Positions 26,029 through 29,928 of a stretch of 64,000 nucleotides of DNA are shown here, one piece after another. The notes beneath the pieces are model-generated. The model worked only from the letters and a program-made list of their open reading frames with translations. It made no database searches and had not been told where the DNA came from. Source of the stretch: Hyphomicrobium sp. (GTDB lineage Bacteria > Pseudomonadota > Alphaproteobacteria > Rhizobiales > Hyphomicrobiaceae); contig NZ_RXIZ01000007.1 in the NCBI RefSeq assembly GCF_003987855.1, positions 101,648 to 165,647 on the forward strand, in the 5' to 3' direction. The translations under genes were made by a program, and so were the position numbers. Position 1 is the first letter of the stretch. Each line of letters starts with the position of its first letter.

Positions 26029-26820
26029 CTACTGCGAAATCTGGTTTTCTGACCCGATCAACCCGCCGGATCGGTCAGTCGTGGTCTGCTTCGTCAGACT
26101 GGGGATCTGCTGACTGGACCGCCATCGAGCATCCGAGTGCCAATAGTTGATCAGCACTTCGACATTGCGATTCTGTGCTTCGCAGAGCGGCCCGTCGCAG
26201 AGCGCCACCCGATCCTGGTTGCCCGCAGCCTTAATCTCTATGCGGCCCGGCTGGAGCCCGGCAGCTATCAGTCGATCCCGGACTGTTTGGGCGCGCTGTA
26301 ATGACAGGTTCCGGACCGCGGCTTCATCGCCCTCGCTGTCCGCTCGTCCGATAACCATGACCGACAGATCAGGGCGTGCATTCAACCAGCGCGCCTGCTG
26401 CTCGATCATGCTGCGCGCCCGCCCGCCCAGCGCAGCGCTGTTTTCGGCAAAGAAGACTCGGTCGCCGACATCGAAGAGAAACGCGCGCCTGTACTCAGCC
26501 GTACGCTCTGCCTCGTCGGCTTTCAGCCGTGCGCGGGAATCGGGGTCGAGTTCACCGCGATCCAGGGCTGCGAGCGCCCGTTTGGCTTTCAGCGCCTCCG
26601 GTGAACCTGGGTAGTCGGAGACGACGCGGTCGAGAAGCCGGCGGCCGGAATCGTCGACATGATCGGACAAAGCATCGAGCCCGTCCTCCAGAAGCTCGGC
26701 GGCCGTCTCATCTTCGGAATCACGCTCCTGTGCGCCAAGATGAGGCGCCAACGCTCCCATCACGGTGAGGACGCTACAAATAATGCCGACCGCTACAAAT
26801 GAAGTCCGCAATTTAAACAT
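26029..26820 (-). CDS. OmpA/Pal-like C-terminal domain protein with N-terminal TPR-like region
   Basis: RVFFAENSAALGGRARSMIEQQARWLNARPDLSVMVIGRADSEGDEAAVRNLSLQRAQTVRDRLIAAGLQPGRIEIKAAGNQ. Confidence 0.82.
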   Translation of the reverse strand: MFKLRTSFVAVGIICSVLTVMGALAPHLGAQERDSEDETAAELLEDGLDALSDHVDDSGRRLLDRVVSDYPGSPEALKAKRALAALDRGELDPDSRARLKADEAERTAEYRRAFLFDVGDRVFFAENSAALGGRARSMIEQQARWLNARPDLSVMVIGRADSEGDEAAVRNLSLQRAQTVRDRLIAAGLQPGRIEIKAAGNQDRVALCDGPLCEAQNRNVEVLINYWHSDARWRSSQQIPSLTKQTTTDRSGGLIGSENQISQ

Positions 26821-26975: not shown

Positions 26976-27488
26976 CTATCGCTGGCTGACGACGCCGCCG
27001 CTGTTGAGCACGGTCTGCGCGCGTCGATTCTGCGACCAGCACGAGATGTCGTTGCAGACAGCCACCGGGCGTTCCTTGCCGTACGAAATCGTCCGAATGC
27101 GCGCGCCGTTGATTCCGTGCTGAGACAAGAAATTCCGCACCGTCGTGGCGCGTCGGGCGCCAAGCGCAATGTTGTATTCCCGCGTGCCGCGTTCGTCCGC
27201 GTGACCCTCGATCGTAATCGTGTACTGCGGATACTGCTGCAGCCACTGCGATTGCTTCGTGAGCGTCTGTTGCGCTTCCGGCGTGAGGTCCACCGAGTCG
27301 GTCGAGAAGTAGACGATGTCGCCGACATTCTGAGTGAAGTCGCGCTGCGAACCCGGTGTCGCGTTGCCGTACTTGCTGCTGAGCGCATCCGGCTGCATGT
27401 CCTTGTTTGCGCATGCAGCGAGCGTCACCGCAAGAACCGAAACGGCGGCAAGGCGCAGACCTAAGCTCCGCGCGAACGTGGCCATCAT
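26976..27488 (-). CDS. pal: Peptidoglycan-associated lipoprotein
   Basis: Lipobox LAVTLAAC; VYFSTDSVDLTPEAQQTL ... TIEGHADERGTREYNIALGARRATTVRNFL ... SYGKERP. Confidence 0.96.
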   Translation of the reverse strand: MMATFARSLGLRLAAVSVLAVTLAACANKDMQPDALSSKYGNATPGSQRDFTQNVGDIVYFSTDSVDLTPEAQQTLTKQSQWLQQYPQYTITIEGHADERGTREYNIALGARRATTVRNFLSQHGINGARIRTISYGKERPVAVCNDISCWSQNRRAQTVLNSGGVVSQR

Positions 27489-27951
27489 TTCGCTAATCCC
27501 TTCGTATCGATCTCGTCTCTTGCACGAGTCGCATCGCGAATCTTCCGCCAAGAGAAACGGTTTGTCCCTTGTGCCGATAACCGAGCGTTCGGCCCAAAAT
27601 ATGGCCGATTCCACGGAGGGAGCCCCATCTCACTCGCGATACGTTCGTACGATCCGGGAACCCCGCAGCACGCCTCTGCCCGAAACTTCTATCATCGGGA
27701 TTCAAGGTGTGTGTGCGACTAATTTGAATTACGAGCACTTTTCTACGCGGTTTTCCCCGAGTTCCTCGGGCTCACTGAGGATCAACTTGACCCGAAACTC
27801 TTAATCATTCGGTAACGCACTCGAAAATCGAATCGATCGTGCGTGTGAGATGCCCCAAAAAAGCTCAAGACCGAGATGATGGCACGAAATGCCAACAACT
27901 CGGCCTTGAAGATTGGGATGAAAAACGCAGTACTAAGAAGTCAGGGTGCGC

Positions 27952-28077
27952 TTAGCGCGCAACCTGCTCCGAAGCGACGGGCCCGCCGAGTTTCAGCGGC
28001 GTATGTTCTGCTTCACGACGGCAAGCGCCGAGAGCAACAGCAGCCAAAACGGCAGCGAGTACGATTGCGTTCTTCAT
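27952..28077 (-). CDS. Tiny predicted lipoprotein A (41 aa)
   Basis: MKNAIVLAAVLAAVALGACRREAEHTPLKLGGPVASEQVAR*; lipobox-like ALGAC; AAGGAG ribosome-binding site upstream of ATG. Below the ORF-track cutoff. Confidence 0.78.
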   Translation of the reverse strand: MKNAIVLAAVLAAVALGACRREAEHTPLKLGGPVASEQVAR

Positions 28078-28113
28078 TGTAGTCTCCTTTGAGGTCTAGA
28101 TTACGCGCTAAAA

Positions 28114-28254
28114 TTAGCGAGCAACCGAGTCGCTAGCGGTCGGGCCGCCGAGCTTCAAAGGCGTATGCTCAGCTTCGCGACGGCAAGCGCCGAGAGCGAC
28201 AGCCGCAACAACTGCTGACAAAAGGATCAGCCCCTTCACACCCTGCATGGTCAT
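28114..28254 (-). CDS. Tiny predicted lipoprotein B (46 aa), tandem paralogue of A
   Basis: MTMQGVKGLILLSAVVAAVALGACRREAEHTPLKLGGPTASDSVAR*; AGGAG upstream of ATG; shares VALGACRREAEHTPLKLGGP with the neighbouring ORF, with synonymous differences. Confidence 0.78.
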   Translation of the reverse strand: MTMQGVKGLILLSAVVAAVALGACRREAEHTPLKLGGPTASDSVAR

Positions 28255-28401
28255 ATCTCCTGATACGATTCCGGCAAAAGCCGTACTCTGGGGTACCGGG
28301 AGGGCGCTCCCCGATCAAGAACGCAGGCGCTAAATCCCAAGTTTTCCAACCCTATAGATGCGAAAATGCAACGGGCGAGAGTGGGCAAAAGTCAACACTT
28401 T

Positions 28402-28425: not shown

Positions 28426-28504
28426 CGCACTGATTTCGCTCGCACTTACGTTTCGAGCCGAAGTCATCGTTAATATCTTGGGCAGCGCGTTCGTGAAGGA
28501 TTTC

Positions 28505-29845
28505 TTAATTGAGGAGGGGTGACCAAGCCGGGTCCGATGCGAAGGACGGGGTGTCGACCTTTCGCTCGTTGTAGCCGGTGATGTCGACTGAGAAGATTCG
28601 AGCCCCTCCCGCCTCGCCGTTGCTGAGATCACGGAAGAACATGAGCACTCGACCGTTGGGGGCCCAGGTCGGCCCTTCGTTATGGAAGCCCTCGGTCAGC
28701 GTCCGCTCGCCGGAGCCGTCCGGTTTCATCACGCCGATGATGAACTGGCCCCCGGCCTGACGGGTAAAGGCGATGTAGTCGCCGCGCGGCGACCAGACGG
28801 GGGTCGAATAGCTGCCGTCCCCCTGGGAGATCGGATGCGGGTTCGAGCCGTCCGCGTTCATCACCCATAGCTGCTGGCGGCCGCCGCGATCGCTTTCAAA
28901 GACTATCTGGCTTCCGTCCGGTGAATAGCTGGGGCTGGTGTCGATCCCGTTCGACTGGGTCAAGCGGCGGGGCTGCCTGGAACGAAGATCCATTTCGTAG
29001 ATGTCGGACCCGCCGTCCGGCCGGCCAAGGCTCATGATGATCCGCTGACCATCGGGGGAAAATCGTGGCGCGAACGTCATGTTCGGGAAATCACCGACGA
29101 TCTCGCGCTTGCCCGTCTCGAGGTTCATGATGAAGACCCTCGGCTGGTCGCTCGTGTACGACATGTAGGTGATTTCCTGGTTCGTCGGCGAGAACCGGGG
29201 CGTCAGCACGAGTTCGTTGCCCTGGGTGAGAAGGCGAACGTTGGCGCCGTCCTGGTCCATGATCGCCAAGCGCTTCACGCGCCGCTCCTTGGGACCTGTC
29301 TCGTCGACGAACACGATGCGGGTATCGAAGTAGCCCTTTTCGCCGGTTAGGCGCTCGTAGACGCTGTCGGCGATCATATGCCCGATCCGGCGCCAATTGC
29401 GCGAGGCCGTCGAGAACCGCTGACCGGTGAGCTGCTTTCCGCCCGCAACGTCCCAGACGCGAAATTCTGCGCCGACACGGCCGTCGCCGCTGTTCACGAC
29501 CCGGCCAACGACTAGAGCGTCGGCTTGTATCGATCTCCAGTCACCGAACCGGGGCAGAGCGTTGACGTCGCGCACCTGTTCCAGGAATGACGCGTGATCC
29601 AGCGGCCTGAAAAGGCCGGAGCGTTCTAAGTCCGCTTCCACTACGCCAGAAATCTGCTGCGCGAGTTGCTGATCGTCACCGAGAAAGGTTGGGATCGCAA
29701 TCGGGATTGGCGCGATGGTGCCTTCGGTCTGCGTGCCCTTTAGCTGGGCCATAGCCGGCGTTGAGAGCCCCGGAACGAACCAGATCCCCGCGGCGGCGAG
29801 GGCAGCAATGGACAACAGCCGTTTCAGGCGGACTTTCAAGGTCAT
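28505..29845 (-). CDS. tolB: Tol-Pal system translocation protein TolB
   Basis: Signal peptide and WD40-like PD40 repeats ([32 protein letters not shown]..., [28 protein letters not shown]). Confidence 0.97.
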
Positions 29846-29928
29846 GAAGGCTCTCTCATGCGTTCCGTCGGCGTCGGGGTAGAGGTTGTGACTTCGCTTC
29901 GCGGTCGATTGAAGCATCTTTTAGGCGA

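Follow-up and report, generated by a model that had tools for sequence, protein, structure and literature searches.

Two tiny lipoprotein genes lie in tandem between tolB and pal on the minus strand of the window, by which we mean the whole 64,000-nucleotide stretch of Hyphomicrobium DNA that was analysed, and they are accompanied by a conserved upstream module and a predicted terminator. Read from tolB toward pal, the features are:

28505-29917, minus strand: tolB, the upstream neighbour (TIGR02800, 452 bits against a cut-off of 343)
28493-28508, minus strand: TTAAGAAATCCTTCAC, a CtrA-like site that shares bases with the stop codon of tolB; degenerate in this genome
28355-28372, minus strand: conserved box 1, GTTGCATTTTCGCATCTA (54 upstream regions aligned; 17 sequences across families)
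28341-28349, minus strand: conserved box 2, TTGGAAAAC (54 upstream regions; 17 sequences across families)
28313-28318, minus strand: putative -35 element TTGATC within the invariant CTTGA(T)(C) (CTTGA in 17 of 17 sequences across families)
28290-28295, minus strand: putative -10 element TACCCC, 17 nt from the -35 element and with no T at -7
28272-28283, minus strand: small hairpin CGGCTTTTGCCG, which should lie close to the 5' end of the mRNA (92.6% of cells paired)
28257-28261, minus strand: Shine-Dalgarno sequence AGGAG of copy B (from the sequence; kept in relatives)
28114-28248, minus strand: copy B, the tolB-proximal lipoprotein gene, 44 aa (signal part MQGVKGLILLSAVVAAVALGA, mature part CRREAEHTPLKLGGPTASDSVAR; start moved to the second ATG)
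28083-28089, minus strand: Shine-Dalgarno sequence AAGGAGA of copy A
27952-28077, minus strand: copy A, the pal-proximal lipoprotein gene, 41 aa (signal part MKNAIVLAAVLAAVALGA, mature part CRREAEHTPLKLGGPVASEQVAR)
27857-27910, minus strand: predicted intrinsic terminator, a 12-bp stem with an inner helix followed by U6 (MFE -35.7 kcal/mol, z -8.0)
26976-27506, minus strand: pal, the downstream neighbour (TIGR02802, 143.7 bits against a cut-off of 125)

A preliminary description of this DNA had reported tandem tiny ORFs on the minus strand, 36 bp apart and flanked by tolB and pal, both with ribosome-binding sites and a lipobox-like LGAC. The coordinates agree with ours, the flanking genes score above the cut-offs of their TIGR models, AAGGAGA and AGGAG precede copies A and B, and the lipobox reads LGA-C in both, at the end of a predicted signal helix. 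Of the reported lengths of 41 and 46 codons, the first stands for copy A, but copy B most likely starts at the second ATG, at 28248 (MQGVKG...), and not at 28254, which gives it 44 codons. We prefer the second ATG because AGGAG lies 8 nt from it and only 2 nt from the ATG at 28254, and because homologues in other families begin with MQG. Both copies are underlain by a direct repeat of 102 nt with 78% identity, and both precursors have a basic n-region, a predicted hydrophobic helix and a lipobox ending in the Cys that would become +1, a residue kept across the family. AlphaFold2 predicts a single helix for the signal part (residues 3-27, with pLDDT of about 90 in the core) and an unstructured mature part. 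Farther along the cluster, between pal and cpoB, the window also holds a second OmpA-domain periplasmic protein, which has no lipobox (26029-26820, minus strand); genes similar to it occur at several Hyphomicrobiaceae loci.

Copies A and B are real protein-coding genes for lipoprotein precursors, and both the gene family to which they belong and its lipoprotein nature are well supported. Their 23-residue mature chains are nearly identical, as expected of the paralogous pair that had been described, with 20 of the 23 residues shared. The chains differ at 17 of 69 nucleotides and in 3 residues, against 10.6 residue changes expected at random, and none of 20,000 simulations gave so low a number. 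Within the genus, copy B has an uncorrected pN/pS of 0.28 and copy A one of 0.31. The protein-level selection originally read from the synonymous bias of the differences is borne out as purifying selection, and frame, lipobox and motif persist in homologues that are 36-66% identical to copy B. Frame-conserved homologues in relatives, on which the preliminary description had made its case depend, are clearly present: the gene was found in 34 of the 35 genomes of the same family in a search of relatives, the one exception being a genome that is 71% complete.

The reading frame, the lipobox and the core motif CRREVxHxPMKLG also recur in homologues from roughly a dozen further families of the order. 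Profile searches, which scored the best 24-30 candidates per genome with rare misses possible, gave 49 matches in 298 genomes of the order, 7 of which (at 3e-4 to 9e-4) are probably chance, and none at E 1e-5 in 240 sampled alphaproteobacterial genomes, at least 3 of them from Hyphomicrobiales and the rest from other orders. The named matches are Hyphomicrobium, Filomicrobium and related Hyphomicrobiaceae; some MAGs among the matches are labelled otherwise, and one Phycisphaeraceae contig matched weakly. We collected 137 distinct mature chains of 20-30 residues, most of them 22-24 long. Position +2 is R in 129, +3 is R or K in 128 and +4 is E in 125; PMKLG or PLKLG occurs in 126 and a final R in 109, the count of Lys being biased by a search pattern that demanded Lys after L, M or Y. 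The general build is a signal peptide of the type MQGxKG or MKxA, a lipobox, and a mature chain CRREVxHxPMKLGADVPAxxxVAR of about 21-27 residues. No model in Pfam or NCBIfam covers the mature chain, a PDB search gave no believable relative, and our literature search found no paper on the gene family. PG1828 (NF050142), TrbK and DUF4995 were rejected as its identity, their weak matches lying far below cut-offs; the PG1828 match consists essentially of signal peptide and lipobox (residues 1-25 of 41), and the match to the TrbK/Eex entry-exclusion lipoproteins is likewise weak. Judged by these sequence searches, copies A and B belong to a micro-lipoprotein family that had not been described before and that is restricted to one branch of Hyphomicrobiales.

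Members of the family carry one, two or three tandem copies, and the paired layout is not essential, since many genomes keep a single copy and some have three. Among Hyphomicrobium relatives, copy A has lost its lipobox at two loci (L005, L007) and was not found at two others (L006, L016). A further locus (L028) has an intact copy A and a remnant of copy B. One copy or the other is kept, which suggests redundancy or dosage. Two copies are also present in other families (L066-L072, L061), at a spacing much wider than the 36-60 nt seen here, suggestive of independent duplications. A third, diverged paralogue (CRRETPEYTPMKLGG, on G000:C13) lies outside tol-pal beside a gene with a TonB_C domain, in a neighbourhood found in five Hyphomicrobium genomes and more loosely in two more; some distant paralogues have neither tonB nor tol genes nearby. 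The third paralogue on G000:C13 (L034:4907-5071) is convergent with the TonB_C-domain gene (L034:5440-6501) and a DUF72 gene, and this neighbourhood is kept in the genus.

The main copies sit between tolB and pal wherever both genes lie on the stretch fetched, and by location the family is encoded at the tol-pal locus, as had been proposed for the pair; all homologues at a tol locus have tolB on one side and pal on the other. To our knowledge, textbook Tol-Pal clusters have no lipoprotein gene between tolB and pal. Hyphomicrobiales that lack the gene usually have a tolB-pal gap of 130-335 nt without a lipoprotein ORF, and in a few of them larger gaps are filled by other sequence. No lipoprotein gene was found in the gap of more than 20 tol-pal clusters of other Hyphomicrobiales, and the tolB-pal gaps of 28 other alphaproteobacterial lineages, sampled from other orders, contain neither the gene nor the upstream module. 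In a quick TolB tree, made without bootstraps and with the very divergent carrier L186 excluded, rooting with those 28 lineages places the carriers in one group (SH-aLRT 95). With more genomes added, the trait is explained by two changes, a single gain and a later loss in G064. A close relative of G064, G161, retains a diverged copy. Within this genus the gene is strongly diverged in G205 and G161 (L188, L189; CEKQIDEPPLKFGAGDV...) and lost in G064 (L236), and constraint seems to be relaxed there. On the evidence of the tree, the gene originated once, early in a single group of relatives, and since then has nearly always held its place between tolB and pal. Gene-less lineages have an ordinary tol-pal cluster and G064 has lost the gene, so it is not a universal requirement.

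The module upstream of copy B comprises GTGGCATTTTCGCAtC, GAAAAc, CTTGATC-N17-GGTA, a small GGC...GCC hairpin, AGGAG and ATGCAG at nearly fixed spacing, with 17 unconserved bases between CTTGATC and GGTA. It is kept from Hyphomicrobium to other families, its conservation exceeds that of the gene itself, and it is missing from the tolB-pal gaps of lineages without the gene. Boxes 1 and 2 occur together at one place in the genome, and CTTGATC-N(15-17)-GTACCC occurs once. A sigma-70 promoter is plausible at TTGATC-N17-TA; in alphaproteobacteria most promoters of that class lack a T at -7 (PMC8407463). A generic sigma-70 scan detected no promoter here, as is expected for a -10 element without the final T. 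The leader hairpin is conserved in sequence but was rejected as a structured RNA, its covariation not exceeding that of shuffles, and an Rfam search of the leader gave chance-level matches. By-eye comparison of the conserved boxes with the CenR motif TGA-N8-TGA (PMC9275681) and with the ChvI motif TTGC-N3-GCAA or GCC-N8-GCC (PMC9731502) showed no fit to either.

Farther upstream, about 260 nt before the lipoprotein start and about 190 nt from the putative promoter, lies a CtrA-type site whose first half-site is in part the tolB stop codon itself. TTAA-N7-TTAA, the CtrA-type consensus, is present in 49 of the 54 upstream regions when up to one mismatch is allowed (23 of them exact), compared with 2.8 (0.1) in shuffles. 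This site may be an older element of the tolB-pal intergenic region. TTAACC half-sites at other spacing were also seen in the tolB-pal gaps of families without the lipoprotein, and in the window a TTAA-N7-TTAAC-like site with one mismatch lies at 27801-27816, upstream of pal and past the terminator.

A comparable hairpin with a T-run follows the final lipoprotein gene in 41 of the 42 relatives by a permissive scan that 33% of shuffles also pass, and in 21 of 43 by a stricter one (7% of shuffles). The lipoprotein unit falls at the border of tolQRAB and pal-cpoB, which are two transcription units in other alphaproteobacteria (PMC9275681). The putative promoter and predicted terminator argue that the lipoprotein genes form a separate transcription unit, a conclusion that we consider well supported; read-through from tolB may occur. 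With a promoter-like module and terminator of its own, the pair is probably more than a segment of the tolB operon or of the pal operon.

Several known systems of tiny lipoproteins bear comparison with the pair. LptM (formerly YifL; PF13627, NF047847), which resides in the outer membrane, is likewise a tiny lipoprotein with no folded domain and with conservation right after the lipidated Cys, but its motif is CG-KGPL-xPP instead of CRREVxHxPMKLG and its locus is different. The members of the new family lack the CGxKGPLxxP motif and fall below the LptM models, and the same genome has a true LptM elsewhere, at argH (G000:C19; PF13627 above cut-off, CGVKGPLEPPP). The preliminary description had likened the pair to the entericidins ecnA/ecnB while remarking on the lack of an entericidin motif. 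The likeness holds for the layout, small lipoproteins in tandem, but not as a family relation: PF08085 finds nothing in either protein or in the whole genome (E up to 1) or in 22 family members (E up to 0.1), which agrees with the remark on the motif, and the mature chains, identical at 20 of 23 residues, are unlike a toxin and its antidote. In Agrobacterium, of the same order, the PF08085 protein Atu8019 (53 aa, of which 32 are mature) is a surface lipoprotein involved in OMV docking and is not lytic (PMC7296081). Its mature sequence differs from those of copies A and B. The Braun lipoprotein Lpp (PF04728) is also small and has a short transcript of its own that ends in a strong terminator, an arrangement that copies A and B appear to share. 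Their mature chains, however, are under half as long, lack a coiled coil or heptad-repeat helix and end in Arg in place of Lys; with no PF04728 match, a 23-residue unstructured chain ending in Arg was rejected as a member of that family.

An envelope role for the pair is plausible, and we infer that it probably represents an extra outer-membrane part lacking in the textbook Tol-Pal system. In the mechanism that we propose, the pair's own promoter would transcribe a short unit between tolB and pal, closed by the strong terminator. The chain would be lipidated at its Cys and, with Arg at +2, would follow the default sorting to the outer membrane, a rule that is based on E. coli. The mature chain would stay unfolded. 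Its basic pair, beside the lipid, would lie at the headgroups, and its P-M/L-K-L-G segment, which is near-invariant, would dock into a fixed partner. This partner would most likely be a Tol-Pal component, and the peptide would tune the mobilisation or anchoring of Pal at the constricting or budding envelope. For the micro-lipoprotein as a Tol-Pal component, loose forms of the idea included, we estimate a probability of about 0.38. The strongest point in favour is that the locus has been kept since the single origin; the paralogue beside a TonB-type transducer, the other trans-envelope energy transducer, counts on the same side. The strongest contrary point is the separate promoter and terminator, since with separate transcription the locus may be a long-kept address and not a functional link. 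Taken in its most specific form, as a dedicated extra Tol-Pal subunit born once in the Hyphomicrobiales branch, with the lipidated 23-residue peptide controlling Pal or TolB at the outer membrane, expressed from a conserved promoter that may be linked to CtrA, and with a paralogue serving a TonB-type system, the proposal is tentative and, as a whole, unlikely.

If the locus is only a stable address, the peptide could be a client chaperone on the pattern of LptM, docking by its lipidated chain on an outer-membrane beta-barrel or its assembly machine (LptD, BAM or another barrel) instead of Tol-Pal. The separate transcription unit and the one paralogue away from tol-pal would fit such a role, as would the precedent of LptM, a very short lipoprotein whose first residues after the Cys are conserved (PMC10567701). 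Such a chaperone would leave the fixed tolB-pal position unexplained, the motifs differ, and the genome already has its true LptM at argH; we consider this reading possible but unlikely. The promoter-like module and terminator could serve an abundant bulk lipoprotein of the outer membrane, which would coat the inner leaflet structurally or electrostatically and whose copy number would be raised by tandem duplication, and the occurrence of two or three tandem copies, either of which may decay while the other stays, is consistent with this; a bulk role would not demand strongly conserved CRRE and PMKLG, however, and we think it rather improbable.

Another reading is a peptidoglycan-linked tether, with LD-transpeptidases joining the conserved internal Lys to peptidoglycan. 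These enzymes are unusually important in Hyphomicrobiales, and the Lys is near invariant, though in chains gathered by a search pattern that demanded it. In Agrobacterium, of the same order, LD-transpeptidation is reported to be crucial (PMC11527210). The C-terminal residue is usually Arg (109 of 137) and not the Lys of Lpp, and the distance of about ten residues from lipid to Lys is very short, so that we give the tether only a small chance. A toxic pair resembling entericidins or lysis proteins, one toxin with its antidote, is suggested by the small size and tandem arrangement, but it is largely refuted and very improbable: PF08085 gives no match, both copies share the same mature chain, and the gene is often single-copy and vertically inherited from one origin. 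The least probable reading, to which we give almost no weight, is that there is no protein gene here, and that the ORF arose by chance within a conserved element acting as RNA or DNA. The upstream region is more conserved than the gene, as such an element might lead one to expect, but divergence between copies and between species is biased toward synonymous changes and the frame is kept across families despite nucleotide divergence, on which grounds a chance or RNA-only origin fails.

What is new here is an ordinary class of protein, the tiny lipoproteins, in an unexpected and strongly conserved setting. Protein genes of about 40 codons can be overlooked even when they are conserved across an order, and the conserved upstream module offers a handle for finding the regulator. 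Few trans-envelope machines of Gram-negative bacteria have been studied as well as Tol-Pal, which in alphaproteobacteria is linked to polar growth and division. An additional conserved unit in the middle of the tol-pal locus, absent from the family libraries searched, is a testable lead to a clade-specific component of the envelope.
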